Counted from the stretch's first letter, positions 4,774 to 42,505 are shown. The stretch is DNA of 42,505 bases from Bacteroidota bacterium (GCA_039111535.1 JBCCIM010000029.1:1-42505), one strand, 5' to 3'. Notes: generated by a model from the letters alone, not told the origin. Program-made: numbers and translations.

Positions 4774-4917
4774 TAGGCTGGGTATCTTTACAATACCCGT
4801 TTTACATTTATGTGGATACTGACTTCGTGTTTAGGTAGTGCATACGATATAATTTCTATTGCCCGTAAATACAGCGAAATAAAGGAGTGTAATCCCGAAA
4901 GATCCAATAGCCTGAGT

Positions 4918-4937
4918 ACTCTTCGAAGAGTTTTTTT
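4918..4937 (+). terminator. Short palindrome plus T-run, possible plus-strand terminator
   Basis: ACTCTTCGAAGAGT (4918-4931) is a perfect 14-base palindrome that can fold into a 5-bp stem with a TCGA loop. It runs directly into seven T residues and then CTT. The orientation suits a plus-strand transcript, yet no plus-strand gene lies just upstream. It might block antisense transcription into the leucine-rich-repeat gene. The stem is short, so strength is doubtful. Confidence 0.35.
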
Positions 4938-4994
4938 CTTGTGGAGCCACAATTCTCATGTTGTATGCTAACCGGTCTTAGCCGATTCTTCCTT

Positions 4995-7223
4995 CTACAA
5001 GAGAATTATCTTTTTAGTCGATTCATAAGGCCCCATTCGAATCTTATAGAAGTAAAGGCCCGCAGAAAGGCTTCGCCCATCAAAAACGGCTTTATGCCGA
5101 CCAGGCTGCATCATTTTGTCTATGAGCGTCGAAATGAGTTGACCTCCCGCATTATAGACGCTTAAGCGTACAGATACTGGTTCTTTTACATCGAAAATGA
5201 TCGTAGTTAACGAATGGAAAGGGTTGGGATATGCCGGCAGTAATTCGTATTCGTATGAACTGATTTCATCTTCGGTTGTCGTAGGCATCGAACAAGAGCC
5301 GGCATCAACAACTTGTTGAAGGGTTGGATTAATCAGGTTATTACTTACACTATATTCCCCCTGTAACCCCTGAGAACTTAGCAAAGAATGAAGGCCACAA
5401 AAACTATCTAGAGCTGTATTGTAGTTGATATACAGGCCATTTTCCACAGAAGTAAGATTGCTCAATCCATCCAGGGTGGCAAGAGAATCATTATATCTGA
5501 TAAACAATTCTCCGCCTACGGAAGTCAGATTGCTCAAGCCATCCAATGTGGTAAGAAGCATATTGCTTCTTACACCCAGGCTGCCATTCAGGATTGTAAG
5601 ACTGCTCAAGCCGTCGAGCGAGGCAAGAGAGTCATTAAAGCTAATAGTCAAATCATTCAACGTCGAAAGGTTTTCCAGGCCTTCCAGTGTAGTTAAGGAT
5701 ACGTTGCTTTCTAGAATCAAAGCCTCGCCTATGGAAGTCAGGCTTTCCAAACCATCCGTGGAGGACAGCGATGCATTTTTTCTTACTTCGAAATAGCCCT
5801 CAACAGAAGCAAGTCTGTTCAATCCGGTCAGCGTAGTCAGAGAGTTATTTCCGTCGATATCCAGATTGCCTCCTACAGAAGTAAGACCGTTCAAGCCAGT
5901 CAGCGCGGTAAGGGCAGGATTGCTTGTTATGTCCAGATATCTTCCCACAGCAGCAAGGTTGTCCAAACCAGTCAGTGTAGTCAGAGAGGGATTACCTGAT
6001 ACAACTAGATATTGCAAGGTTATAAGGCCTTCCAATCCTTCAAGTGTTGTTAGGGAGGTATTTCCGACGACATCCAGATTGCCCCCCACGGAAGTAAGAC
6101 TACGCAAACCATCCAGGGTGGTTAGAGAATCATTGAAGCCGATATAAAGGTCATCACCTATGGTAGTGAGACCCTCCAAGCCATCGAGAGTGGCAAGGGA
6201 TGCATTGTGGCTGATTTGCACAACATCATCCACAGACTCAAGCGCATTCAAACCACTCAGCGTAGTAAGGGAATCATTATGGTCTATGATCAGATAGCCA
6301 CCCACAGCAGCAAGGCCGTGCAAACCAGTCAGTGTAGAAAGAGAGATATTTCCCGAAATACTGACATTGCCACTTGCGAAAGTAACATTATTTAAGCCAT
6401 CCAGCGTGGTTAAGTTTAAGTTGCTCCATAACACTATATCGCCTCCCACGGAGGTAAGGTTGTTCAAACCAGACAAAGAGTTCATGGGAGTGCGACCTAT
6501 GATGAGACCGCCTATCAAAGAAAGACTGTTCGCGCCCATCAATGAGGCCAGTGAATCATTATCCTGCAAACCCAGAATTCCCCCTATGGAAGAAAGACTG
6601 TTCAATCCTTCCAGGGAGGTCAGGGACTGGCTACCATTTATGTTCAGATAGCCGGCTATGGAAGTAAGACCATCCAACCCCTGCAGTGTAGTGAGGGATG
6701 TGTTGAAGTTCACATCAAAATCTCCGTCTACAGAAAGAAGGCTATTCAAACCAGCTAATGTGGTCAGAGAGGCATTTCCTGTTATTTCCAGATCACCACC
6801 TATAGAAGTCAGATTACTCAAGCCATCAAGTGAAGCCAGTGCTACATTTCCCCTTAACTCTAGATCTCGCAAGGTACTTAAGCCTCCCAATCCATCAAGA
6901 GAAGCGAGAGAAGGATTACTTTCCACAATCAGAGTACCACCTATTGCAGTCAGATTGTTTAAACCAGCCAATGACATTAATGAATCATTGTCGCTTATAA
7001 TCAGACGCCCTCCTACAGAAGCAAGTGTTGAAAGGGGCGCTAAATCAACTATATCAGAACCGTTGATTTCAAGAGAACCTGTAATATCCGTCCCACTAAA
7101 CGCATCTACTTGAGCCTGATTAGATAAGACGACACTGCCATCTACAACTTGCGCGTGTACCATAGATGAGAAAAACATGAACGCGCTAACAAGAAGATGT
7201 ATCGTTACTATTTTTTTTATCAT
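4995..7223 (-). CDS. Leucine-rich-repeat (receptor-L-like) surface protein with T9SS sorting domain
   Basis: The ATG at 7223 gives 742 residues starting with a clear signal peptide (MIKKIVTIHLLVSAFMFFSS, cleavage near HAQ). A TTG eleven codons upstream is in frame but would spoil it. Residues ~64-613 are about 23 tandem repeats of 22-24 residues with pattern LTSVGGxLxIxxNxSLTTLDGLxx, a leucine-rich, receptor-L-domain-like solenoid. A lone cysteine pair (FCGLHS and DAGSCSMP) may cap the solenoid. The last ~80 residues (YPNPFHSLTTIIFDV ... GLYFYKIRMG) are a type A T9SS C-terminal sorting domain, so it should be exported and anchored or released at the cell surface. Ligand binding or adhesion is plausible but inferred. 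Base composition is visibly more A/T-rich than neighbouring genes. Confidence 0.85.
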   Translation of the reverse strand: MIKKIVTIHLLVSAFMFFSSMVHAQVVDGSVVLSNQAQVDAFSGTDITGSLEINGSDIVDLAPLSTLASVGGRLIISDNDSLMSLAGLNNLTAIGGTLIVESNPSLASLDGLGGLSTLRDLELRGNVALASLDGLSNLTSIGGDLEITGNASLTTLAGLNSLLSVDGDFDVNFNTSLTTLQGLDGLTSIAGYLNINGSQSLTSLEGLNSLSSIGGILGLQDNDSLASLMGANSLSLIGGLIIGRTPMNSLSGLNNLTSVGGDIVLWSNLNLTTLDGLNNVTFASGNVSISGNISLSTLTGLHGLAAVGGYLIIDHNDSLTTLSGLNALESVDDVVQISHNASLATLDGLEGLTTIGDDLYIGFNDSLTTLDGLRSLTSVGGNLDVVGNTSLTTLEGLEGLITLQYLVVSGNPSLTTLTGLDNLAAVGRYLDITSNPALTALTGLNGLTSVGGNLDIDGNNSLTTLTGLNRLASVEGYFEVRKNASLSSTDGLESLTSIGEALILESNVSLTTLEGLENLSTLNDLTISFNDSLASLDGLSSLTILNGSLGVRSNMLLTTLDGLSNLTSVGGELFIRYNDSLATLDGLSNLTSVENGLYINYNTALDSFCGLHSLLSSQGLQGEYSVSNNLINPTLQQVVDAGSCSMPTTTEDEISSYEYELLPAYPNPFHSLTTIIFDVKEPVSVRLSVYNAGGQLISTLIDKMMQPGRHKAVFDGRSLSAGLYFYKIRMGPYESTKKIILL
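5385..7034 (-). repeat. Coding tandem repeat array of the LRR protein (~23 units of ~72 bp)
   Basis: The DNA for the LRR solenoid is a degenerate direct repeat with a period near 72 bases. Most units read 24 codons; a few have 22 or 23 (for example LSTLRDLELRG and LITLQYLVVSG units). Neighbouring units share short near-identical blocks, so unit number could change by slippage or recombination. Identity between units is modest, pointing to an old array rather than a recent expansion. Confidence 0.75.
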
Positions 7224-7403
7224 GAATTCCAGAGTGTGCAATGAGGAAGGCCGCAAAGAATCGTGTAATACCTTGAAGCTGGTTTAACGCTGAAATGACT
7301 GCTTTTGGCCACGAGAAAGAAATCTAACCAATCCCTGTAGCAATAAAAACCCGTTCTCCGATCTCCCAGATGCAGTTTCAGTTCATTTACCGGCCTTCCC
7401 CCC

Positions 7404-8210
7404 TTACCCATCCAGCCCAAACAACTGTTTCGCATTGGCCGTCGTCACAGCAGCCACCTCCTCAACCGACATTCCCTTTACCTCCGCCAGCTTCTCTGCA
7501 ACCAGGCGCGTGTACGCCGGCTCATTCCTTTTACCCCGATGCGGCACAGGGGCCAAAAACGGTGCATCTGTCTCCAGCACAACCTGCGTGAGCGGGACGT
7601 CCTTCACAATATCCGCCACACCACTGTTTTTGAACGTCAACGTCCCGCCGATCCCGAGCAGGAAATTTAGCTTCGCAGCTTCCTCGATCAGCCACGCCGG
7701 CCCACCGAAGCAATGGAAAATGCCGCGGAGGTTGTCGGCTTTTTCTTCGTTCAGGATTTTAACCATGTCGCGGTGCACTTCATCTTTGCCCTGCTTGTCG
7801 CGCATGTGCAGGATTAGCGGCAGGTCCTTTTCGATAGCGAGGCGGATGTGCCGGCGGAAGAAGTCCTGCTGCTTCGCGTCGAACGTTCGATCCCAGTAGT
7901 AGTCGAGGCCGCTCTCCCCTACGGCTACTACACGTGAATCATCACAAAAAGCAGCTACGGCTTCAAAGTCTTCGTCCGTTGCGTCTTTGGTGTCACTCGG
8001 GTGAATGGCAGACATCGCATGCAACCCGTCGTAGGCGTCACACAACGCCAATGCATCGTGGATGGAGGCTACATCGATGGCCGGCATCACGATGATCCCA
8101 ACCCCCGCGTCTTTTGCACGCTGGATCATCGCTGCCTGGTCGTTCAGCATCCGGTTATGGTAAATGTGCGCGTGCGTATCAATAATCAACGGGTGGTTCA
8201 AATCGGGCAT
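7404..8210 (-). CDS. tatD: TatD family metal-dependent deoxyribonuclease
   Basis: Encodes 268 residues, normal for TatD. Metal-binding and catalytic positions of this amidohydrolase-fold family are all visible: DTHAH with H13 and H15, E99 in VGESGLDYY, H135 in LILHMR, H166 in IFHCFGG, and D215 in LETDAPFLAP followed by RGKRNEP. Family members act as cytoplasmic 3'-5' DNA exonucleases in repair or DNA turnover; the exact substrate is inferred. The gene is followed at 150-180 bases by the start of the LRR gene on the same strand, and no operon link is evident. Confidence 0.93.
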   Translation of the reverse strand: MPDLNHPLIIDTHAHIYHNRMLNDQAAMIQRAKDAGVGIIVMPAIDVASIHDALALCDAYDGLHAMSAIHPSDTKDATDEDFEAVAAFCDDSRVVAVGESGLDYYWDRTFDAKQQDFFRRHIRLAIEKDLPLILHMRDKQGKDEVHRDMVKILNEEKADNLRGIFHCFGGPAWLIEEAAKLNFLLGIGGTLTFKNSGVADIVKDVPLTQVVLETDAPFLAPVPHRGKRNEPAYTRLVAEKLAEVKGMSVEEVAAVTTANAKQLFGLDG

Positions 8211-11810: not shown

Positions 11811-11854
11811 GATAAAGCGGCACATTCCTGAATGATGCTTCATTCGTGATCACG

Positions 11855-11966
11855 GTTGTCGGATTTTTGGGTTGTCGGGTTTTTGGGTTGTCGGGTTTTC
11901 GTGTTGTCGGGTTGTCGGATTTTTGGGTTATCGGGTTATCGGGTTGTCGGATTTTTGGGTTGTCGG
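11855..11966. repeat. Octamer tandem array 1 (14 units, GTTGTCGG / RTTTTTGG)
   Basis: Fourteen consecutive octamers without interruption. In order: GTTGTCGG, ATTTTTGG, GTTGTCGG, GTTTTTGG, GTTGTCGG, GTTTTCGT, GTTGTCGG twice, ATTTTTGG, GTTATCGG twice, GTTGTCGG, ATTTTTGG, GTTGTCGG. Alternation of two octamer types gives a 16-bp higher-order period. Units are nearly perfect, which suggests active or recent expansion. Confidence 0.9.
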
Positions 11967-11984
11967 GTCATTATCCGGAAGTAC

Positions 11985-12048
11985 GAAATCACAAAAACAC
12001 GAAATCACAAAAACACGAGATCACAAAAACACGAGATCACGAAATCAC
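11985..12048. repeat. Octamer tandem array 2 (8 units, GARATCAC / AAAAACAC)
   Basis: Eight octamers: GAAATCAC, AAAAACAC, GAAATCAC, AAAAACAC, GAGATCAC, AAAAACAC, GAGATCAC, GAAATCAC. It lies 18 bases after array 1. Its reverse complement (GTGTTTTTGTGATCTC per 16 bases) matches array 1 (GGGTTTTTGGGTTGTC) at about 12 of 16 positions, so it looks like an inverted, diverged relative. CAAAAAC here can pair with GTTTTTG in array 1. Confidence 0.88.
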
Positions 12049-26249: not shown

Positions 26250-28727
26250 TTGAACACGGCTAAACAAAAAGATCGAGACAAAATTAACCTCGATTTGATG
26301 CGGACTTTTAGCCTCTATGCGGGCCCCGTGGTCATTTTGTACCGCTTTATCTTTCTTTATTCAGATCCCGATGCTGTTGATCCTTTGTGGATGCGCTTCA
26401 GTATTGCCGGCCTGTTTGCAACCTTTTCTGTCGGCTGCTACTACTTCCCCACAGCAATAAAAAAGTACGCAACCGCCCTATTCAGTAGCATTCAATACGC
26501 TACAACCTGTTGGCTTGCTTACCTGGCATATCTCAACAACCTATCGTCGTCGGTTACCCTCGGTTTCATCGTAGTGATTGTGACGATCTACTTTGTCTTT
26601 CATACAAAGCGAGCCCTCGCGGTATATGCCTCAGTAGTTACCGGGCTCGCCGTGCTTGTTACGTTTACAGCACCAGAGCCACAGATTGTGCCGCTCTTTT
26701 TTCTGAGCACCATCATTGTAATTGCCTTTTTCACCTACATCATCCTGCATTCACGGCTTGATGCCATGGATGAATTGGACAAAAGTGAAGCCATCATGGG
26801 GACTGTATTCCATGATAGTGGTGATGCATTTCTTGTTATCGATGCAGAAGAAGAAACCGTAATCAGCCATAACAATACTGTTTTTGAAACGCTTGAGGTG
26901 CGCACAGTTGATCAGCTACTTAGCAAACTGGCAACAATGCTCACAAATTCGGAAGCATCTCTGGAGCCACAGCCAGCGTTGCGCGCCCTCATCAGCAGCA
27001 CACCACTGAGTGAGCGCATACAGCTCAATCCGGAAGACGATGGGCGCTGGATTGACGTGCACATCAAAGAACTGGACAGCAGTAACAACCGCCTGTTGTT
27101 GGTTAAGGTGTCGGATATCACGCAAGGCAAGCGCATCGATGAGTATCGCATTGCCAAAGAAGCTGCTGAAGAAGCTAACCGCTTGAAAGACAGCTTCCTG
27201 GCTACAATGAGTCACGAACTCAGAACACCCATGAATGGCGTGATAGGGATGGCCAACTTGCTCAACTACACGCAACTGGATGAAGAGCAGAGCGATTACG
27301 TGCAAACGATCCACACCAGTAGTGAAAACCTGATGAGTATCCTGAACGATATTCTGGACTTCACCCGGTTGGGATCTGGGCTTGCACAGCTAGACATTCA
27401 GCCATTCTCCCCCGTCCTGGTTATGGAAGAGGTAGCAGAGCTCTTTGCCATGGAAGCCGGCTCCAAAAAAATTGAACTTGTAGTACATCCGGATGCTGCC
27501 GGCTATTGGGAGGTTGAAGGCGACAGCAAACTGCTGTGGAAGGTGCTGATGAATGTCGTTGGCAATGCGGTCAAGTTTACACCAACAGGAGAAATCTGCA
27601 TCAACCTGGAAACGAAACGCCTGCAAAACGACACACTCGAGCTTCACTTCAGCGTACAGGATACGGGCATTGGGATTCCGTCTCACGCCCTCGAAACCAT
27701 TTTTGAGCACTTCAAACAAGTTGATGCTTCTTTCTCTCGTAGCTATGAAGGCATTGGCCTGGGGCTTGCCATTACGCGGCAACTGGTTGAGTTACTCGGT
27801 GGCGAAATTTGGGCAGAAAGTTTGCTGGGGAAAGGTTCGACGTTCCACTGGAAAATCCCGGTTGGGCTACCAGCCACGGCTAACCATCCCGAAGATCCGG
27901 CACAAACTGCATACTCGGTGCTTCTGCTCGATCACCGGCCGGCATCTATCCGCCGCATGGAGCAATTATTTAACCGTAAAGGAGATACGTGCTACAGCAC
28001 CAACGACCCTTCCGAAGTCTATGCACGCCTCGAAAACGGCCATATGTTCGATCTGGCAATGATCGATATATTCTTACCCGGCCAGGACGCTTTTGAATTG
28101 GCCCGGGCCTTAAAGAAAAAAGCCTCCAATGCGCTTCGCGTTATCCTTCTCGCTCCTATGGGCGTAAAAACAGAATTCTCAGCGGATGTGGCTGATGCCT
28201 TGTTAACAAAACCGATCCTAGAGGACGCGTTCTACAAACGAATCGAATCGGTTATGGCTCCGATCAACCAGCCGGCGCTACAGCGTTTGCTCAACAAACG
28301 AAAACGGGCAGCTGCACTTCCCCACAAACGCGAAGTAAGCGTCCTACTCGTCGAAGACAACATCATGAATCAGCAGGTTGCCCTGAGTACGCTTGGTGTG
28401 CTCGGTTACCGTGCTGATGTGGCAGACAATGGCCAACATGCCCTCGAGCAGATGGCGAAAAAGAGCTACGACCTGATTTTTATGGATTTGCAAATGCCGC
28501 TCATGGATGGCCTTGAGGCCACACGGCAAATCAGGACAACGTATATCGAAAAGCCTCCCTATATCATTGCCCTGACCGCCAACGCACTGGCTTCAGATTA
28601 CGAGCAATGTATGGCGGTGGGGATGAATGACTTTCTCTCAAAGCCCATCAACATAAAAGAACTTAAAGCCAAACTGGACGATTTCGACACGCACCTCGTG
28701 GCGGCTTTGCCAAATCCTAACGAATAA
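26250..28727 (+). CDS. Hybrid sensor histidine kinase (BarA-like) with two receiver domains
   Basis: 825 residues from a TTG at 26250; ATG at 26298 (MRTFSLYAGP) is an equally possible start, 16 residues later. Residues ~20-175 are about six membrane helices, an unrecognised MASE-like sensor. A PAS-like domain (~190-290) and short coiled linker lead to HisKA with H322 in ATMSHELRTPMNGVIGM, then HATPase (NVVGNAVKFTPTGE, DTGIGIP, GIGLGLAITRQLVELLGG). The first receiver keeps D606 (AMIDIFLPGQD) but has a reduced acidic pocket (LLLDHRPAS). The second is canonical with D746 (FMDLQMPLMDGLEA). No HPt domain follows, so phosphotransfer needs a separate protein. The 3' end overlaps the convergent nuclease gene by 11 bases. 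Confidence 0.92.
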   Translation: MNTAKQKDRDKINLDLMRTFSLYAGPVVILYRFIFLYSDPDAVDPLWMRFSIAGLFATFSVGCYYFPTAIKKYATALFSSIQYATTCWLAYLAYLNNLSSSVTLGFIVVIVTIYFVFHTKRALAVYASVVTGLAVLVTFTAPEPQIVPLFFLSTIIVIAFFTYIILHSRLDAMDELDKSEAIMGTVFHDSGDAFLVIDAEEETVISHNNTVFETLEVRTVDQLLSKLATMLTNSEASLEPQPALRALISSTPLSERIQLNPEDDGRWIDVHIKELDSSNNRLLLVKVSDITQGKRIDEYRIAKEAAEEANRLKDSFLATMSHELRTPMNGVIGMANLLNYTQLDEEQSDYVQTIHTSSENLMSILNDILDFTRLGSGLAQLDIQPFSPVLVMEEVAELFAMEAGSKKIELVVHPDAAGYWEVEGDSKLLWKVLMNVVGNAVKFTPTGEICINLETKRLQNDTLELHFSVQDTGIGIPSHALETIFEHFKQVDASFSRSYEGIGLGLAITRQLVELLGGEIWAESLLGKGSTFHWKIPVGLPATANHPEDPAQTAYSVLLLDHRPASIRRMEQLFNRKGDTCYSTNDPSEVYARLENGHMFDLAMIDIFLPGQDAFELARALKKKASNALRVILLAPMGVKTEFSADVADALLTKPILEDAFYKRIESVMAPINQPALQRLLNKRKRAAALPHKREVSVLLVEDNIMNQQVALSTLGVLGYRADVADNGQHALEQMAKKSYDLIFMDLQMPLMDGLEATRQIRTTYIEKPPYIIALTANALASDYEQCMAVGMNDFLSKPINIKELKAKLDDFDTHLVAALPNPNE

Positions 28728-30501
28728 CCAGCATTTGCCGGACTTGACTTCCCGCTTCAGTTTGTAGACGGTAAATATATACCCCAGCGTTTAACGCCTC
28801 CGTAACGTACGTAACCGTATGTTCGCCGGCGCCATACGTACCATGGGCCAACTGCGCCACTTCGCGTCCCAGCATGTCAAATACAGTGAGCGAGACAGTC
28901 TGGGCAACTGGCAACAAAAACTTGATGGCCGTCTGGTTAGCAACCGGGTTCGGGTAGTTTTGATCAAGGGATGCAACCCGTTGAGGCAAGCCGGTATCTG
29001 TCCCAACGGTATGAAATTCAACGCCCGTGCCCTGCACCTGCGGACTGCCGTTGCCCGTTGCAATAATCCAGTCTTCAAATGAATCCGTATCCAGCGCAAA
29101 CGATGCCCTGACGAGCGACTCCCCCCTTCTTGCATTCGGTTCGAGGTCACTGTTCCACAGCGCCGGCACCCCCTTGCTTGCGCCCCCTTCCCATGCAACC
29201 TCATCCATAACCTCATCTGCAGGATTACGCAAAAGCAATGCATCTCCCGAATTATTCAAGGGTGGGATATTGTCGTACAGATCAGCGCCATACCCATAAA
29301 GCGCCACAAAAGCATTTGCATCGTTGGCTACTGTAAAATACGTACCCGCTTGCATCACATGGCTTTCTGGGAAAGTGTATGTAAATCCGTCGCCGTTGTT
29401 GTCTACCAGCGACCAGCCGGCAAGGTCAACGGCTCCTGTGCCGTTGTTGTATAGTTCGACCCACTCTTCGTCGGCGTCCGTGCCTGGCGTGTCATAAAAA
29501 ATCTCGCTAAACATCAGGACGGGCGCAGATGCTACAGAAGAATCAGTATAGCTTACAAAATCAGCGTATACAGGCAGATGGTCCGACGCATCATGCAGGG
29601 CCTGTGCCATGTCGTCACTGACAACCAGGTTGGGGCCATCTGTGATCGCTTTGTTGAAGTGCTGTCCGTCGTTGCCATACACGGTATAGCTGCCGGCTTT
29701 GAAGGCGATTTTCTCTGTATCGAACACATGCTGACTGCCAAGAATGAAATCGAACCGGTCATCCATACCACCCGACGCCCCACCTCCAATAGCGATAGCG
29801 CGCGGGCTCTGGGAATGCACGGCTGCAAAAGCCGGATTGTTACGCCAGCGACCAATAAGCGCCGGCTCAACCAGATCGACCAACTGTCCTGTACTATCAC
29901 TGCCTATTCGCGTCAGCAGCTGATATGCAGCCTCGTTATCCTCTCCGATATTCAAGTCGCCGGCAACAATGAACTCAACACTATCAGGCAAACTATTCAA
30001 GTGCATCCGCAGGATCTCTGCTTCGTCGTAGCGGAGGTTTTCGTTCCAGGGGCCATCACCGGCTTTCAAGTGCGCACTGTAGAGGTTAAACGTATTGCCG
30101 GCAACTTCCACAGTGTACTCAGAGAACTCGCGGAGTGCGGTATCCACGGTATCCTGGGATATAAAACGAACGCGATCCTTTCTATAGAAGAGCGCATTGT
30201 CGGTATCTGCACCATTAATGAATGGCGCGTTTGCGAACAACGTGTCTGAAGCATTGAGCGCGGAAAGCAACAGCGCAACACCGTCCGTATTTACCATCTC
30301 CTGAGTAAGGAGAATATCCGGCTGTACTTCAGCAAAAATCGTAGCCAAAGCCTGCTGCCTTTCCTGGTCGTTGTCAGACAACCGGAGCACATTGTACGTC
30401 ACCACCCGAAACGGAACAGGCTGCGCGTGTAATTCAAGGGATGTCCAGGCACAACAGCATACGAACAAAACAAAAAACCATTTCCGGGAAGCAATCAACA
30501 T
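28717..30501 (-). CDS. Secreted endonuclease/exonuclease/phosphatase with lamin-tail domain and T9SS signal
   Basis: The ATG at 30501 gives 594 residues beginning with a signal peptide (WFFVLFVCCCAWTSLELHAQ). A TTG eight codons upstream is in frame. Domain 1 (~30-310) is an endonuclease/exonuclease/phosphatase fold: N37 in VVTYNVLR, E68 in LLTQEMVN, GDLNIGEDN, DDRFDFILGS and terminal SDHLPVYADF, the full catalytic set. Domain 2 (~325-450) is a lamin-tail domain (LMFSEIFYDTPGTDADEEWVELYN). The last ~80 residues (LDQNYPNPVANQTAIKF ... GVYIYRLQTEAG) are a T9SS sorting domain. It probably degrades extracellular DNA or phosphoesters for nutrients (inference). Confidence 0.9.
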   Translation of the reverse strand: MLIASRKWFFVLFVCCCAWTSLELHAQPVPFRVVTYNVLRLSDNDQERQQALATIFAEVQPDILLTQEMVNTDGVALLLSALNASDTLFANAPFINGADTDNALFYRKDRVRFISQDTVDTALREFSEYTVEVAGNTFNLYSAHLKAGDGPWNENLRYDEAEILRMHLNSLPDSVEFIVAGDLNIGEDNEAAYQLLTRIGSDSTGQLVDLVEPALIGRWRNNPAFAAVHSQSPRAIAIGGGASGGMDDRFDFILGSQHVFDTEKIAFKAGSYTVYGNDGQHFNKAITDGPNLVVSDDMAQALHDASDHLPVYADFVSYTDSSVASAPVLMFSEIFYDTPGTDADEEWVELYNNGTGAVDLAGWSLVDNNGDGFTYTFPESHVMQAGTYFTVANDANAFVALYGYGADLYDNIPPLNNSGDALLLRNPADEVMDEVAWEGGASKGVPALWNSDLEPNARRGESLVRASFALDTDSFEDWIIATGNGSPQVQGTGVEFHTVGTDTGLPQRVASLDQNYPNPVANQTAIKFLLPVAQTVSLTVFDMLGREVAQLAHGTYGAGEHTVTYVTEALNAGVYIYRLQTEAGSQVRQMLVIR

Positions 30502-30750
30502 CAAGCTTTTAGGGTGATCTGGCAAAGAGTGAGCGTGCGCAATTTTGCAAAGGGCCGAGATGTGGTGATTGGCACAGATGCTTATACATATATAAATAAT
30601 TTATAACGTCTTAAAGCTAATTGCGAGAAGGATTTGATAAATACGACATTGTGCACAAAACCTTAACAGACTGAAATGAATTGGAGTCTGACGAGCAACT
30701 TTCTTGCTGGATGATAATCTTACCGAAGTCCGATACCGCTCACCAAACTG

Positions 30751-36282: not shown

Positions 36283-36411
36283 CATTCGACAATCGGCATT
36301 CGACAATCGGCATTCGACAATCGGCATTCGACAATCGGCATTCGACAATCGGCATTCGACAATCGGCATTCGACATTCGACAATCGGCATTCGACAATCG
36401 GCATTCGACAA
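36283..36411. repeat. 14-bp tandem array CATTCGACAATCGG (8 full units plus partials)
   Basis: Six perfect units run from 36283 to 36366. A 7-base half unit (CATTCGA, 36367-36373) follows, then two perfect units (36374-36401) and a final partial (36402-36411). There are no spacers, so this is not CRISPR. The two halves, CATTCGA and CAATCGG, are alike at 5 of 7 positions, pointing to a heptamer origin. The array ends 9 bases from the stop of the acetyltransferase gene on the other strand. Two more units lie at 8371-8397. Confidence 0.95.
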
Positions 36412-38006: not shown

Positions 38007-38780
38007 CTACTGCCCTTCTTCGTCTCTGCGTACCGCTTCTGCCGGCACTTTCAAGCCAGGGTCGTCGGGGATTTCCGGCATCCAGATGGTTTCTTCTATC
38101 TTCTTCGAGACAAAGAATACGTCAAACATTGTCGTATCGGAAATGATCAGCGAATCGTTGCGTACGACATAAAGCATATCATATGCGTTCACCGTGTCGG
38201 GCTGCGCCGGCGGTGGTGGTGTGTAGCGCAGTGATTGCTCGTCAAAATCCCACATCTGAAAAGAGAACGCTTCATCATCACGCTCAAACAAAATGCTGAT
38301 TGGCTGCTCGAGGTAGTTACGCTCCAGGGTGCGCAGTAAATCGTAAAGAATGGCTTGCTCGGCTTTTTTCTCGCTCGTGTTTGCCTGCGGATCCATTTCG
38401 GGATTATACACCTCAGCCGTTGCGTTGGCCCCATCATACTGGGTGTTCGCTTCCAATTGCCAGCTGTTCATCAGGTCCTGCACATCTGCCGGCAAAACCG
38501 GTGGCAGCTTGTGCGTCTCCATGGTTGGATGGACAACAACCACGTCATCCGGACCAAACCCATTGCTGGTGATGTCGATCACCTCGAGCATATCCGTGTC
38601 CTCTTCCGTGAGGATGATCAACGCGTCGAGCATGAACGTGATCAGTTGCGGCTCGTTGATTTGTACAACCGGACGCGTAACCTGGCTAAAATCTACCCGG
38701 CTGTCAGGTTGTGCCGTTGCCGGCAGCGCGAGGCAACCCAGCAAGGCAAAAGCAAACGTAAACTGGCTTAACTTTTTCAT
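38007..38780 (-). CDS. Secreted protein of unknown function
   Basis: Encodes 257 residues with a signal peptide (LSQFTFAFALLGCLALPATAQ). The mature part is acidic, with hydrophobic strands LITFMLDALIILTEEDTDMLEVID and SLIISDTTMFDVFFVSKK, and a proline-rich loop (YTPPPPAQPD). I do not recognise a domain. It starts 11 bases after the TPR lipoprotein gene and abuts the HAD gene, so it lies in the minus-strand cluster that includes the ExbD-like genes. It is likely a periplasmic part of the same machinery, by position only. Confidence 0.65.
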   Translation of the reverse strand: MKKLSQFTFAFALLGCLALPATAQPDSRVDFSQVTRPVVQINEPQLITFMLDALIILTEEDTDMLEVIDITSNGFGPDDVVVVHPTMETHKLPPVLPADVQDLMNSWQLEANTQYDGANATAEVYNPEMDPQANTSEKKAEQAILYDLLRTLERNYLEQPISILFERDDEAFSFQMWDFDEQSLRYTPPPPAQPDTVNAYDMLYVVRNDSLIISDTTMFDVFFVSKKIEETIWMPEIPDDPGLKVPAEAVRRDEEGQ

Positions 38781-38791
38781 TATTGCTGCGG

Positions 38792-40276
38792 CTACATGGC
38801 GCGGTATCGTTCGAGGTATTTGCGGGCCTGGTCAAAGTCGCCTTCCGTGCGATAGAAGGTCGCCAACAGACCGAACAATTCTTTTTGGTCTTCAGGCGTA
38901 AGCAGGTCCAGCTCCTGCATGGCTTCCTGCGCGCGCTCTTTCGCAATTTTCACGTTGCTACGTAGCAGTTTTGCGCTTTCGAGGTATGCGCGCGGCCGGC
39001 CTTCCCATGGGAATTGTACCGCCTGCTCCAAATACTTGAGCGCCGTGCGGTTGTCTCGCTTTTCGCCAAGGAAGACCATTGCCTGGTTAAAACAAATGGT
39101 CCCAAATGTATCGAAATATCGGCTATACGTTGAATCTACCGGTGCGCCGTTATCTGTCACCACCGTACGGCGAAGTAGCTGTAGCAACCGATCTGCAGCA
39201 ACGTCTCCTTTGCCCAGCTTGTACTGCACTGACGCAAGCCGCCACTCCGTCTCATCCAACGCTTTTGGGTTCTGGACGGCGCGCAAGAGCTGCTCGTATC
39301 CGCGTTCCGCTTCCGGTAACAGGTTACTTTGTTCAAGCCCGATTAGTGAGTCGCGCGCAAAGCTGGCAGAAAGGTTGCCGTTGTCCCAATTGATCCATTC
39401 CATCTCCCCTTTGATAAACGCAATTTCTTCAGCATCAGGTGCCAGCGACAACGCGCGGTCGTAGGCTGTAACTGCTGCGCCGGCATCACGTCGTAATACG
39501 TGCACGTCTGCCTGCCGGGATACGTATTGGTAGAGCAGCAGCGAATCTGCCGAAACCGGCTCATCCGTTGGCGTCAGGTCGTAAGTTTGCAAGTAGATTT
39601 CTTCTGCCCGTTCGTAGTTGTATGCCGCCTCGTTCCACTTGCTTGTCTGGTAGTAATTATTGGCTAGCGCGACGAACAAGTTGTGCTGATCAGGACGCAG
39701 GCGCGTGAGCTTCTCCAGCACATCGATCGATTCCTGGAATGCATTGGCACGGCCGAGGCGCTGCGCCTGCGCCGTGTAAACCCTTGCTAGCACAGATTGC
39801 GTTTGCAAATCGAATGGGTTGAGCTTGATGGCTTCTTCCAGCGATGTCTGGGCGCGGTTCAGCAAAGCTTCTTGCCGGCGCACAATGGTCATGCTATCCA
39901 GATCTGCCGATTGATTCAACTGAATCAGCTCTTTAAGCGGATTTACCGCCTGGTTAGCAGCGCGCAATGCGGCCTCTGCTGAAGCAGGATCAACGTTGCC
40001 AACGGAATCTTGCGACATCTCCAGATAAATCCACAAGGAATCGCTAAATGCAGAAATATCAATGCCGTCTTGCTTCTGACCAGCGGCAACTTCCTGGTCG
40101 GGGATTGACACAAAAGACGCTTGCGCAATAGAATCAGCAACAGCAGCTACAGCGCTATCAACACCGGCAGGAATAAACAACGCTTCGCTGTTGAGCGCTT
40201 CGTTTTTCAATCCACCAGAACCGGCACAGCCGGCGAGGCCTAAACAGAGGATAAATAAAAAGACAGAGGACTTCAT
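38792..40276 (-). CDS. TPR-repeat lipoprotein
   Basis: The ATG at 40276 gives 494 residues beginning with a clean lipoprotein signal (MKSSVFLFILCLGLAGCAGS, acylated C17); the in-frame extension further upstream is unlikely. The body has several tetratricopeptide-like helix pairs, for example LNPFDLQTQSVLARVYTAQA, LRPDQHNLFVALANNYYQTS, KWNEAAYNYERAEEIYLQTY and AVTAYDRALSLAPDAEEIAF, and a last pair ending DFDQARKYLERYRAM. TPR lipoproteins scaffold envelope complexes. It sits 110 bases after the TonB-like gene and 11 before the secreted hypothetical, in one transcriptional direction. Confidence 0.85.
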   Translation of the reverse strand: MKSSVFLFILCLGLAGCAGSGGLKNEALNSEALFIPAGVDSAVAAVADSIAQASFVSIPDQEVAAGQKQDGIDISAFSDSLWIYLEMSQDSVGNVDPASAEAALRAANQAVNPLKELIQLNQSADLDSMTIVRRQEALLNRAQTSLEEAIKLNPFDLQTQSVLARVYTAQAQRLGRANAFQESIDVLEKLTRLRPDQHNLFVALANNYYQTSKWNEAAYNYERAEEIYLQTYDLTPTDEPVSADSLLLYQYVSRQADVHVLRRDAGAAVTAYDRALSLAPDAEEIAFIKGEMEWINWDNGNLSASFARDSLIGLEQSNLLPEAERGYEQLLRAVQNPKALDETEWRLASVQYKLGKGDVAADRLLQLLRRTVVTDNGAPVDSTYSRYFDTFGTICFNQAMVFLGEKRDNRTALKYLEQAVQFPWEGRPRAYLESAKLLRSNVKIAKERAQEAMQELDLLTPEDQKELFGLLATFYRTEGDFDQARKYLERYRAM

Positions 40277-40386
40277 GGCAATATCAACAACACCTGGCGG
40301 TGTATGAGCGATGTATGGGATGCAGCGTTTTGTGCGGAAACGCCGGAACAGCATCAATCAGAAAAATGGGTCAAACGCAGAAGCTA

Positions 40387-41469
40387 TTAAATATCGTTTT
40401 TTGCGATCTCCCACCAGGAGAGGAACAGGGCGTAAAATTCTTTAGAGCGTTCGTCTGAAGCTGCGCTGCGCTTAGAATTGATCGCGGTGATGCCTTGCGC
40501 CGGCGTACGACCAACGCGGCCTTCGCGCAGGTAAGTACTCAGTTTTTGGAAACTCCGGTCGATGAGGTACGTGGCTTCGTCTGTATCTACCAGCACGATG
40601 TGCACTTCCATCAACCGCTCTTTACACATAAGAAAGAGTTCGTAGCGTTTGCCACCCAGGTCGAAGGAGGTAGCAGACGTAAGGAATGCATCCCGGTGCC
40701 GGACCAGCTTGCGGACGCCAACCGGCATTTCACCCGGATTTGCTTTCATCCATGCAATCAAATCCTGCACTTCCAGGTTCTCATAATCCGTGCCAAACGC
40801 GTCAAGTGACATCCGTTCAACATTAAAATCCGCAGATTCAGCTACAGCAGCCCGGCGGGTATTTTCGCCAACGACGTTTGTCGTGGTTGTGGATCCTGTG
40901 TTCTGACCAGGTGATACGGTACCACTCCCGCTCGCAATGGAAATCCCTCCCCCGTTATTCCCAGTCTGCGACTGCCGGTTGGCACGCCCGCGTGACGTCG
41001 GTACTGGCGCACCAAGGTTGTCCAGGCCATCGAGGCTCCCGAGTCCCTGCAAACCACCTGACGCGACTTCAATTTGTGGCGCATCGTTTTCGTTATCACG
41101 TTGGGCATTGCGGGCCGTTTCGTTGGCTGCGGCCGGCGCAAGGTCAACATCCAGCTCATCTGGAAAAAGCTGGTTGAGATCGAGCTGGTCCAGCGACTGG
41201 GTGCTGGCTTCAACAACCGTAGGCTCTACCGTTTCGGGTTCATTTTCGGGTACATCGGCATCATCCGGTGTTGATACAAATTCGGGCGTGACCACGGGCG
41301 GCGCAAAACTCGCCAGGTCTACTTCCCGAAAAATTTTGCGCGATGGCTTTTCGATGGAAAACGAGGCAAAAAGCAGACAGGCATAGCCAATTGCAACAAA
41401 TACAATGGTGCTCAAAAAGGCTTTGCCTCGCTGATGGATGCCGTCTTTCCTTGGTTCTGGCAGAATCAT
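40387..41469 (-). CDS. TonB-like single-span envelope protein with unrecognised C-terminal domain
   Basis: Encodes 360 residues. A short basic cytoplasmic N-terminus (LPEPRKDGIHQRGKA) leads to one membrane helix (FLSTIVFVAIGYACLLFASF), then EKPSRKIFREVDLASFAPPVV, which resembles the start of TonB-type proteins. Next is a long acidic and proline-bearing spacer (~50-130), a G/S/N-rich low-complexity stretch (~135-195) and a C-terminal domain (~210-360, MSLDAFGTDYENLEVQDLIAWM ... YELFLMCKERLMEVHIVLVD ... ALFLSWWEIAKNDI). The usual TonB C-terminal domain is not evident. Two ExbD-like genes are directly upstream, so it probably transmits energy from an ExbB/ExbD motor to an envelope partner (inference). 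Confidence 0.72.
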   Translation of the reverse strand: MILPEPRKDGIHQRGKAFLSTIVFVAIGYACLLFASFSIEKPSRKIFREVDLASFAPPVVTPEFVSTPDDADVPENEPETVEPTVVEASTQSLDQLDLNQLFPDELDVDLAPAAANETARNAQRDNENDAPQIEVASGGLQGLGSLDGLDNLGAPVPTSRGRANRQSQTGNNGGGISIASGSGTVSPGQNTGSTTTTNVVGENTRRAAVAESADFNVERMSLDAFGTDYENLEVQDLIAWMKANPGEMPVGVRKLVRHRDAFLTSATSFDLGGKRYELFLMCKERLMEVHIVLVDTDEATYLIDRSFQKLSTYLREGRVGRTPAQGITAINSKRSAASDERSKEFYALFLSWWEIAKNDI

Positions 41470-41532
41470 GATGTGTAAACGCTTGTTTGCCGGCTACGCC
41501 AGCTTGTTTGCTAATTTCTGTGCCCGGGTAGG

Positions 41533-41991
41533 CTAAGACTCCACCGTTGGTACTGTGGGTACGGGCGGATTGAAGACCGCTTCGGTGTTGATGTTTTTCT
41601 GAATCCCGAGGCGTTCGCAGACATCCAGTACATCGACCAGCTTTTGCATCGGAGAGGCCGGCGTAGGTTCAATCAGGATATTGAGCACTTGCTGGCGCGC
41701 ACTGTGCTGGGTATCCAGGGTCTGCAATACAAACTGTAGCTCCTCGGTAGAACTGATGCCCACATGAAGCTGGGTACGATCTGTAAGATCAATAACCTCG
41801 AAACGGCCATCTGATCCAATCGTTACCCCAAGGTGCACCTGGTCATCCTTTTGTTCGGGATCAGCCGGCTCGTCTGATTTGCCCGGTAAAGTCACCTGGG
41901 AAATCACCGTAATATCACTGATCATCAGAAAACCAAAGAGAATGATGAGCCCGAGATCAATAAATCTTAATAAGTAGCCTCGACGACGCAT
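41533..41991 (-). CDS. ExbD/TolR-like protein, paralogue B
   Basis: Encodes 152 residues. One N-terminal membrane helix, YLLRFIDLGLIILFGFLMIS, contains an aspartate (in RFIDLG) at the place of the conserved transmembrane Asp of ExbD/TolR that carries protons. The periplasmic part (QVHLGVTIGSDGRFEVIDL ... QQVLNILIEPTPASPMQKLVDVLDVCERLGI) has the ExbD/TolR pattern in which VLDVC...G corresponds to the last helix. It differs clearly from the neighbouring paralogue at 42031, 39 bases upstream in the transcript. The pair may form a hetero-oligomeric stator. Confidence 0.82.
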   Translation of the reverse strand: MRRRGYLLRFIDLGLIILFGFLMISDITVISQVTLPGKSDEPADPEQKDDQVHLGVTIGSDGRFEVIDLTDRTQLHVGISSTEELQFVLQTLDTQHSARQQVLNILIEPTPASPMQKLVDVLDVCERLGIQKNINTEAVFNPPVPTVPTVES

Positions 41992-42030
41992 GTAGTCTCA
42001 AGTCTGGATAATGAATAGGGAGCGTAAGAA

Positions 42031-42429
42031 TCAGGAGTCCTGCATTTTCAACTCAACTTCCAATGCTTTTGCAAGGCCGAGTTCATCACATAGCGCTGCA
42101 ACGGCAAATGCGTCTTTAGCAGAAGCATCTCTGCTGCTACGGATACGCACTTTGAGTGGCACATCGCCAAATGCTTGTTTGGTTGCTACGAGGTGATCTC
42201 TCAGCAAGTCAACTGAAGTAATCAGGACTGATTCGTCTTCAATGAGATAATTGCCTTCGGGTAAAACGCCGATGAATACCACTTCTTCGGTGTCCATCGA
42301 AACAGGCGCTGTTTCCGTACTTTCGGGCAGGTTGACTTCTGTATCCTGGAGGTTCGATATACTGATAAATCCAAAGAGGAGAATCAATACAACGTCTACA
42401 AAACGCAGAATGAATCCAGATGCGCGCAT
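42031..42429 (-). CDS. ExbD/TolR-like protein, paralogue A
   Basis: Encodes 132 residues from ATG 42429, chosen because MRASGFILRFVDVVLILLFG lines up with the start of paralogue B; a GTG at 42477 would add 16 residues. The TM aspartate is in RFVDVV. The periplasmic domain (EEVVFIGVLPEGNYLIEDESV ... VPLKVRIRSSRDASAKDAFAVAALCDELGL) fits ExbD/TolR. Upstream, the minus strand has a frame ending at a TAA at 42482-42484 (RCRHRAP*), which could be the tail of an ExbB/TolQ/MotA-type gene lying outside the window. Confidence 0.83.
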   Translation of the reverse strand: MRASGFILRFVDVVLILLFGFISISNLQDTEVNLPESTETAPVSMDTEEVVFIGVLPEGNYLIEDESVLITSVDLLRDHLVATKQAFGDVPLKVRIRSSRDASAKDAFAVAALCDELGLAKALEVELKMQDS

Positions 42430-42505
42430 GGTATAGTAAATTGCAGTGAATGGGGACAATTTGCCGGCGAACAGCACTTGCTTATGGCGCCCTGTGCCGG
42501 CAACG

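Follow-up and report, generated by a model that had tools for sequence, protein, structure and literature searches.

The window analysed here is the whole 42,505-base stretch of DNA that forms contig C29 (JBCCIM010000029.1) of the Bacteroidota bacterium assembly GCA_039111535.1 (355 contigs, 6.6 Mb, Rhodothermales-type). Its final 4.5 kb carry, on the minus strand, an operon truncated at the contig end, with two ExbD/TolR-like genes followed by the genes of a TonB-shaped transducer, a tetratricopeptide repeat (TPR) lipoprotein and a secreted protein (Table 1). We propose, with a probability of roughly 0.55, that this operon encodes a dedicated 5:2-type proton-driven envelope motor with a new transducer domain, which would energise the display or movement of surface proteins. 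ExbB-ExbD complexes turn proton flow into mechanical motion, TonB-shaped proteins relay it across the periplasm, and in Flavobacterium the SprF-SprB pair is moved by GldLM. To our knowledge, the outer membrane lacks an energy source of its own, and only a few carriers of proton energy are known to serve it (Ton, Tol, GldLM, and Agl-Glt). If our reading is correct, the cassette would represent a further carrier of this kind, conserved in several phyla and characterised by a new force-transducing domain and an interchangeable outer-membrane output. No description of such an operon was found in the open-access literature that was searched (without subscription papers or preprints).

Table 1 Features of the putative motor operon at the end of the window
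Feature	Position	Strand	Characteristics
ExbD/TolR-like protein 1 (ExbD1), 132 amino acids	42031..42429	-	Single membrane helix with conserved Asp (ILRFVDVVLILLFGF); PF02472 3.6e-9
ExbD/TolR-like protein 2 (ExbD2), 152 amino acids	41533..41991	-	Single membrane helix with conserved Asp (LLRFIDLGLIILFGF); PF02472 2.2e-8
TonB-shaped transducer, 360 amino acids	40387..41469	-	Short cytoplasmic N-terminus, one membrane helix, linker, C-terminal domain
Unclassified C-terminal domain of the transducer	40390..40863	-	AlphaFold2 model; no family or fold match
TPR lipoprotein	38792..40276	-	ATG start; lipobox LAGC; TPR_8 1.7e-8, TPR_14 2.4e-8
Secreted protein, 257 amino acids	38007..38780	-	Signal peptide; conserved IIDxTxNGxGxxD motif; family without a model
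Contig end; an assembly gap breaks the ExbB-like gene close to this point	42430..42505	-	Fragment on C264; synteny with L017

Operon organization

The five operon genes of the window all point in one direction, as originally predicted, and are separated by short gaps (about 39, 63, 110, and 11 bases, from ExbD1 through ExbD2, transducer and TPR lipoprotein to the secreted protein). An ExbB-like gene had been expected just outside the window, to be found by reading past position 42505. The window being an entire contig, there is no direct continuation, but the 5′ end of such a gene was recovered on a second contig of this assembly (C264), which came to light when the barrel from the closest relative was used as query. 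The minus strand of C264 encodes a TPR lipoprotein, a type B cargo protein of the type IX secretion system (T9SS), a PorP/SprF-family barrel and an ExbB start of about 108 codons (locus L117, 326 down to 3), which runs off the contig end. Because three relatives (L017, L048, and L049) have exactly this gene set, contiguous and without a gap, we infer from synteny that both contigs hold parts of one operon, which would read TPR lipoprotein, type B cargo, PorP-like barrel, ExbB, ExbD1, ExbD2, transducer, TPR lipoprotein and secreted protein, and which would be split within ExbB by the assembly gap. No clear ExbB C-terminus was recognisable in the 79 bases 5′ of ExbD1, and when the entire assembly was searched with PF01618, no ExbB assignable to the window operon emerged, the only matches being on C36, where a separate ExbB-ExbD pair is located, on C68 (flagellar MotA) and on C3.

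Conservation and distribution of the cassette

A scan of the genome contigs with the window transducer as a single sequence returned nothing, and homologues were recovered with an alignment. They comprise 38 named loci in Rhodothermales/Bacteroidetes, Balneolaceae, Gemmatimonadota, KSB1, and Calditrichota, and the transducer family is present in 27 of the 114 genomes of the order. Complete ExbB genes and two ExbD genes are situated directly upstream of the transducer in 31 of the 33 loci that have at least 3 kb of upstream sequence, while a TPR gene lies 3′ of it in 30 of the 32 loci with 1.7 kb downstream, so that both the ExbB neighbour and the conserved gene order of the original prediction were recovered in relatives. 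Since this order recurs in nearly all testable loci and spans at least four phylum-level groups, with many proteins at 25–50% identity, the conservation of the gene set is, by sequence comparison, far beyond chance.

A second transducer copy, on contig C224 of genome G001 (1–2000; L018/L082), is directly followed by an M23 peptidase gene and not by a TPR lipoprotein. The other genes near this copy match genes of the window at around 33–36 kb. In locus L096, a PorP-like barrel is encoded immediately 5′ of the transducer.

Predicted motor subunits

Both ExbD-like proteins of the window score above the Pfam cut-off for ExbD (PF02472), and all 31 aligned sequences have kept the membrane aspartate, in line with the two adjacent ExbD/TolR-like genes that had been recognised from the window. 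In the phylogenetic tree, ExbD1 and ExbD2 form two clades (100/100 support) that cover an equal range of phyla, and by this separation they are distinct partners retained together and not recent duplicates. PF01618 (MotA_ExbB) was detected in 24/24 ExbB homologues, which match TolQ, ExbB, and PomA sequences in the PDB and have invariant channel threonines in transmembrane helices 2 and 3. The cassette thus has the features that define membership of the ExbB/ExbD superfamily (MotA/TolQ/ExbB and ExbD/TolR), with the 108-codon ExbB fragment of our genome being assigned by synteny and by the likeness of its N-terminus to that of the relatives.

One or two Big_1/invasin Ig-like domains are present at the C-terminus of ExbB in 18/24 homologues (e.g., L076, L080, L084, L098, and L102). 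By the usual ExbB topology they would be cytoplasmic, which is an odd location for such domains, and the ExbB proteins of usher-type operons (see below) are devoid of them.

With ExbBD-TonB and TolQR-TolA, the cassette shares the families of the motor subunits and likely the residues of the proton path, and it differs from them by the two ExbD proteins, the missing TonB/TolA domain, other operon partners and the invasin-like Ig domains on most ExbB. The superfamily membership of the core subunits would also be expected of a TonB-like import system or a Tol-Pal-like system for envelope maintenance in which the transducer had diverged and no link to surface proteins existed; Tol-Pal, too, includes a TPR protein, CpoB. 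We regard this explanation as very unlikely, as the operon genes examined include neither a TonB/TolA domain nor TolB, Pal or a TonB-dependent receptor (TolB, Pal, and TolA being absent from the window operon genes as well as from the upstream half), a separate ExbB-ExbD pair is available on C36 of the same genome, and the operon consistently contains outer-membrane genes of secretion type. The mismatch with canonical Tol-Pal and TonB loci, which had been noted from the window, holds for the operon.

The TonB-shaped transducer and its C-terminal domain

The transducer has a single hydrophobic helix (about residues 17–35), a linker of low-complexity make-up and a C-terminal domain, and the full protein gave no match against Pfam and NCBIfam even at E = 1, as foreseen for a single-span TonB-like protein with an unrecognised C-terminus. 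An AlphaFold2 model of this domain (158 residues, 36 homologues) was obtained with a predicted local distance difference test score (pLDDT) of 86.5 and a predicted template-modelling (TM) score of 0.83, and is predicted to consist of N-terminal helices, a six-stranded sheet and a long C-terminal helix that contains FLSWW. No PDB sequence matched the domain at E ≤ 10, and a Foldseek search against the PDB returned no credible fold, the best E-value being 0.029 and the TM-score at most 0.32 among the 50 matches listed. CapZ, PURA, and C1QBP, which appeared in this search, were rejected as not credible (E 0.03–1, TM 0.16–0.32).

The suspicion that the C-terminus is no ordinary TonB/TolA domain was confirmed to the extent that neither Pfam/NCBIfam (E = 1) nor PDB sequences revealed one, and no TonB or TolA fold was among the 50 Foldseek matches listed. 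Similarly, there was no Pfam match to a von Willebrand factor A (vWA) domain and no vWA fold among those 50 matches, the predicted architecture being the six-stranded sheet plus helix. By the tests applied to sequence and model, the domain is neither TonB/TolA nor vWA.

TPR lipoprotein and small secreted protein

The secreted protein did not match any Pfam or NCBIfam model up to E = 1, and its core was well predicted by AlphaFold2 and found no fold match in the PDB with Foldseek. It is co-conserved across PorP-type, usher-type, and Gemmatimonadota loci, and together with the TPR lipoprotein it is the sole envelope partner that accompanies the motor in every variant. Because operons of both the PorP and the usher type have kept the transducer domain, its direct binding partner should be common to both, which would leave only these two proteins as candidates.

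Likely outer-membrane partners

Two kinds of upstream operon halves were distinguished in the 23 loci whose upstream sequence reaches 7 kb or more: ten have a PorP-like barrel with a type B cargo, ten an usher/chaperone/pilin-like set, three neither and none both. In our genome, the cargo encoded on C264 has 1062 residues with FG-GAP, HYDIN-Ig and CARDB domains and a C-terminal T9SS type B sorting domain. The cargo proteins carry CHU_C/TIGR04131, at or above the curated cut-off in several relatives, and the upstream barrels belong to the PorP/SprF family in 14/14 cases tested (TIGR03519, best 3.7e-16; PF11751, best 2.3e-11); in our own genome the matches to CHU_C, TIGR04131, and TIGR03519 are significant yet remain under the curated cut-offs. 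A cargo gene followed by a PorP/SprF shuttle gene is the published arrangement for T9SS type B substrates (PMC12618676; PMC9143113). By the features tested, including the presence of SprA in the genome, the upstream half of the operon appears to encode a T9SS type B cargo with its PorP/SprF carrier, and the surface protein, with its FG-GAP, CARDB, and Ig repeats, is probably an adhesin.

The PorP-like barrels are extended at the C-terminus by about 250–300 residues that include a FlgD-Ig-like domain. Paired cysteines in the C-tail of SprF attach it to the gliding track (PMC12635249), and a C-terminal cysteine pair was present in 0/15 of the barrels, nine of which have no cysteine whatever. The extension and the missing pair would fit a different, non-GldK connection.

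The usher-type loci (L067–L075 and L077) encode an usher-like protein (about 750 amino acids), a chaperone-like protein and two or three small pilin-like proteins about 2–8 kb upstream of the transducer. In L074 (OX638318.1), the usher-like and chaperone-like genes lie at 5652–7970 and 4870–5640, respectively. These designations are provisional names taken from gene layout and motifs, for which profile searches gave no confirmation: neither Pfam nor PDB sequences linked the usher- and chaperone-like proteins to an usher or a chaperone.

Type IX secretion context

SprA, the T9SS translocon, was found in 113 of the 114 genomes of the order and in all 16 cassette genomes tested, none of which had GldM (PF12081, 0/16; positive controls 3/3). 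GldM was also absent from our genome and 20 relatives (21 searched), and in a sample of the phylum it was present in 14 of 61 genomes, none of them from the same order or class. The GldL model TIGR03513 had no match anywhere, is hence uninformative, and was not used as evidence. Such a distribution of SprA and GldM, as well as the type B cargo and carrier that share an operon with the motor, could be accounted for if the motor served type IX secretion as a replacement energy chain, which would power the ejection of type B (or all) substrates from SprA where GldLM is absent. We consider this role unlikely, given that the cassette occurs in 27/114 genomes of the order vs. 113/114 for SprA and that neither a PorP nor a type B cargo gene adjoins the motor in usher-type operons; a general T9SS motor was rejected on the former counts. 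As a motor for surface proteins, the cassette offers a candidate for bacteria that have SprA and no recognisable GldM.

Two secreted proteins encoded elsewhere in the window (4995–7256 and 28717–30525) have C-termini that resemble T9SS type A sorting domains by eye (YPNP...GxYxYx), which is consistent with type IX secretion being active.

Comparison with known systems

The core of the Agl-Glt machinery of Myxococcus (AglRQS and GltC/D/E/G) is composed of one TolQ-like and two different TolR-like proteins (AglRQS), the TonB-shaped GltG and TPR proteins (PMC3169522). The window cassette has the same recipe of one TolQ-like and two TolR-like proteins with a TonB-shaped transducer and TPR proteins, a likeness drawn from the published description. 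GltG, however, has FHA and TonB-family domains (PMC3169522), where the window transducer has no recognised domain; a PorP/SprF barrel with type B cargo is not described for Glt, and the upstream TPR lipoprotein matched the GltE model weakly (0.0038), far under the cut-off. The shared motor recipe (AglR-AglQ-AglS in Myxococcus), in combination with an SprB-like adhesin and an SprF-like carrier, raises the possibility of a gliding or surface-translocation motor of Agl-Glt type, in which a surface adhesin would be dragged along the cell in order to move it. This is an improbable function in our view, for the barrels are without the paired C-tail cysteines of SprF (PMC12635249) and the usher-type variant has no obvious fit to motility.

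The vWA force transducers described in 2025 adjoin one tolQ and two heterologous tolR genes, and their family also occurs in Rhodothermota (PMC12204202). They resemble the window transducer in their TonB-like topology with a replaced C-terminal domain, the TPR neighbour and the one tolQ and two heterologous tolR genes, and differ in having the vWA domain and the SHLS/His motif (PMC12204202). With GldLM-SprB-SprF, the cassette has in common a type B cargo gene directly followed by the gene of a PorP/SprF-family carrier, and a proton-driven 5:2-type motor is implicated in both; in contrast, it has ExbD and a separate transducer in place of GldM, and its carrier bears the FlgD-Ig-like extension in place of the paired-Cys tail. 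By the features tested, the cassette is analogous to Agl-Glt and SprB/SprF, yet a member of neither, and it is not a vWA system either.

Proposed mechanism

In the surface-protein motor that we favour, an ExbB/TolQ-like channel and two ExbD/TolR-like partners, one ExbD1 and one ExbD2 per dimer being the natural guess, would admit protons and move the TonB-shaped transducer. The latter would act across the periplasm, via the TPR lipoprotein and the small secreted protein, on an outer-membrane device. In our genome and many relatives this device would be the PorP/SprF-like barrel together with the T9SS type B surface protein that it carries, and the motor would release, position or move the carrier-adhesin pair, as GldLM does with SprF-SprB. 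In a second branch, the same motor would be coupled to the usher/chaperone/pilin-like set, and its output would be the export of pilin-like subunits. The dedicated motor acting on an outer-membrane partner, as the original prediction had it, is supported: motor action is deduced from family membership, and the partner can now be given as likely either the barrel with its type B cargo or the usher/chaperone-like set. More tentatively, and with the odds against it, the cassette could constitute a third kind of proton-powered surface-protein machine beside GldLM and Agl-Glt, namely an ExbB-ExbD-ExbD motor with a transducer of unclassified fold that is pluggable into two unrelated devices, either the carrier-adhesin pair of T9SS type B or an usher-like pilus assembly. 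Such a machine would energise outer-membrane steps so far ascribed to GldLM or regarded as energy-free.

Several observations weigh against the proposed motor. The histidine of the motor-contact motif (SHLS-type) of TolA, TonB, and vWA transducers is absent from the helix in 34/36 members of the family, the two that retain it not including the window protein, and because of this the coupling between transducer and motor may differ or be lacking. The ExbB of our own genome is only partly assembled. Two loci (L079 and L096) have a transducer without adjoining ExbB/ExbD, the neighbouring barrel and cargo are absent from some (L079 and L083), and the rejection of the cassette as a general T9SS motor counts on the same side.

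Apart from the operon, short tandem repeats were observed in the window at 36283–36411, 11854–11968, and 11983–12048 (periods 14, 8/56, and 8/16, respectively).

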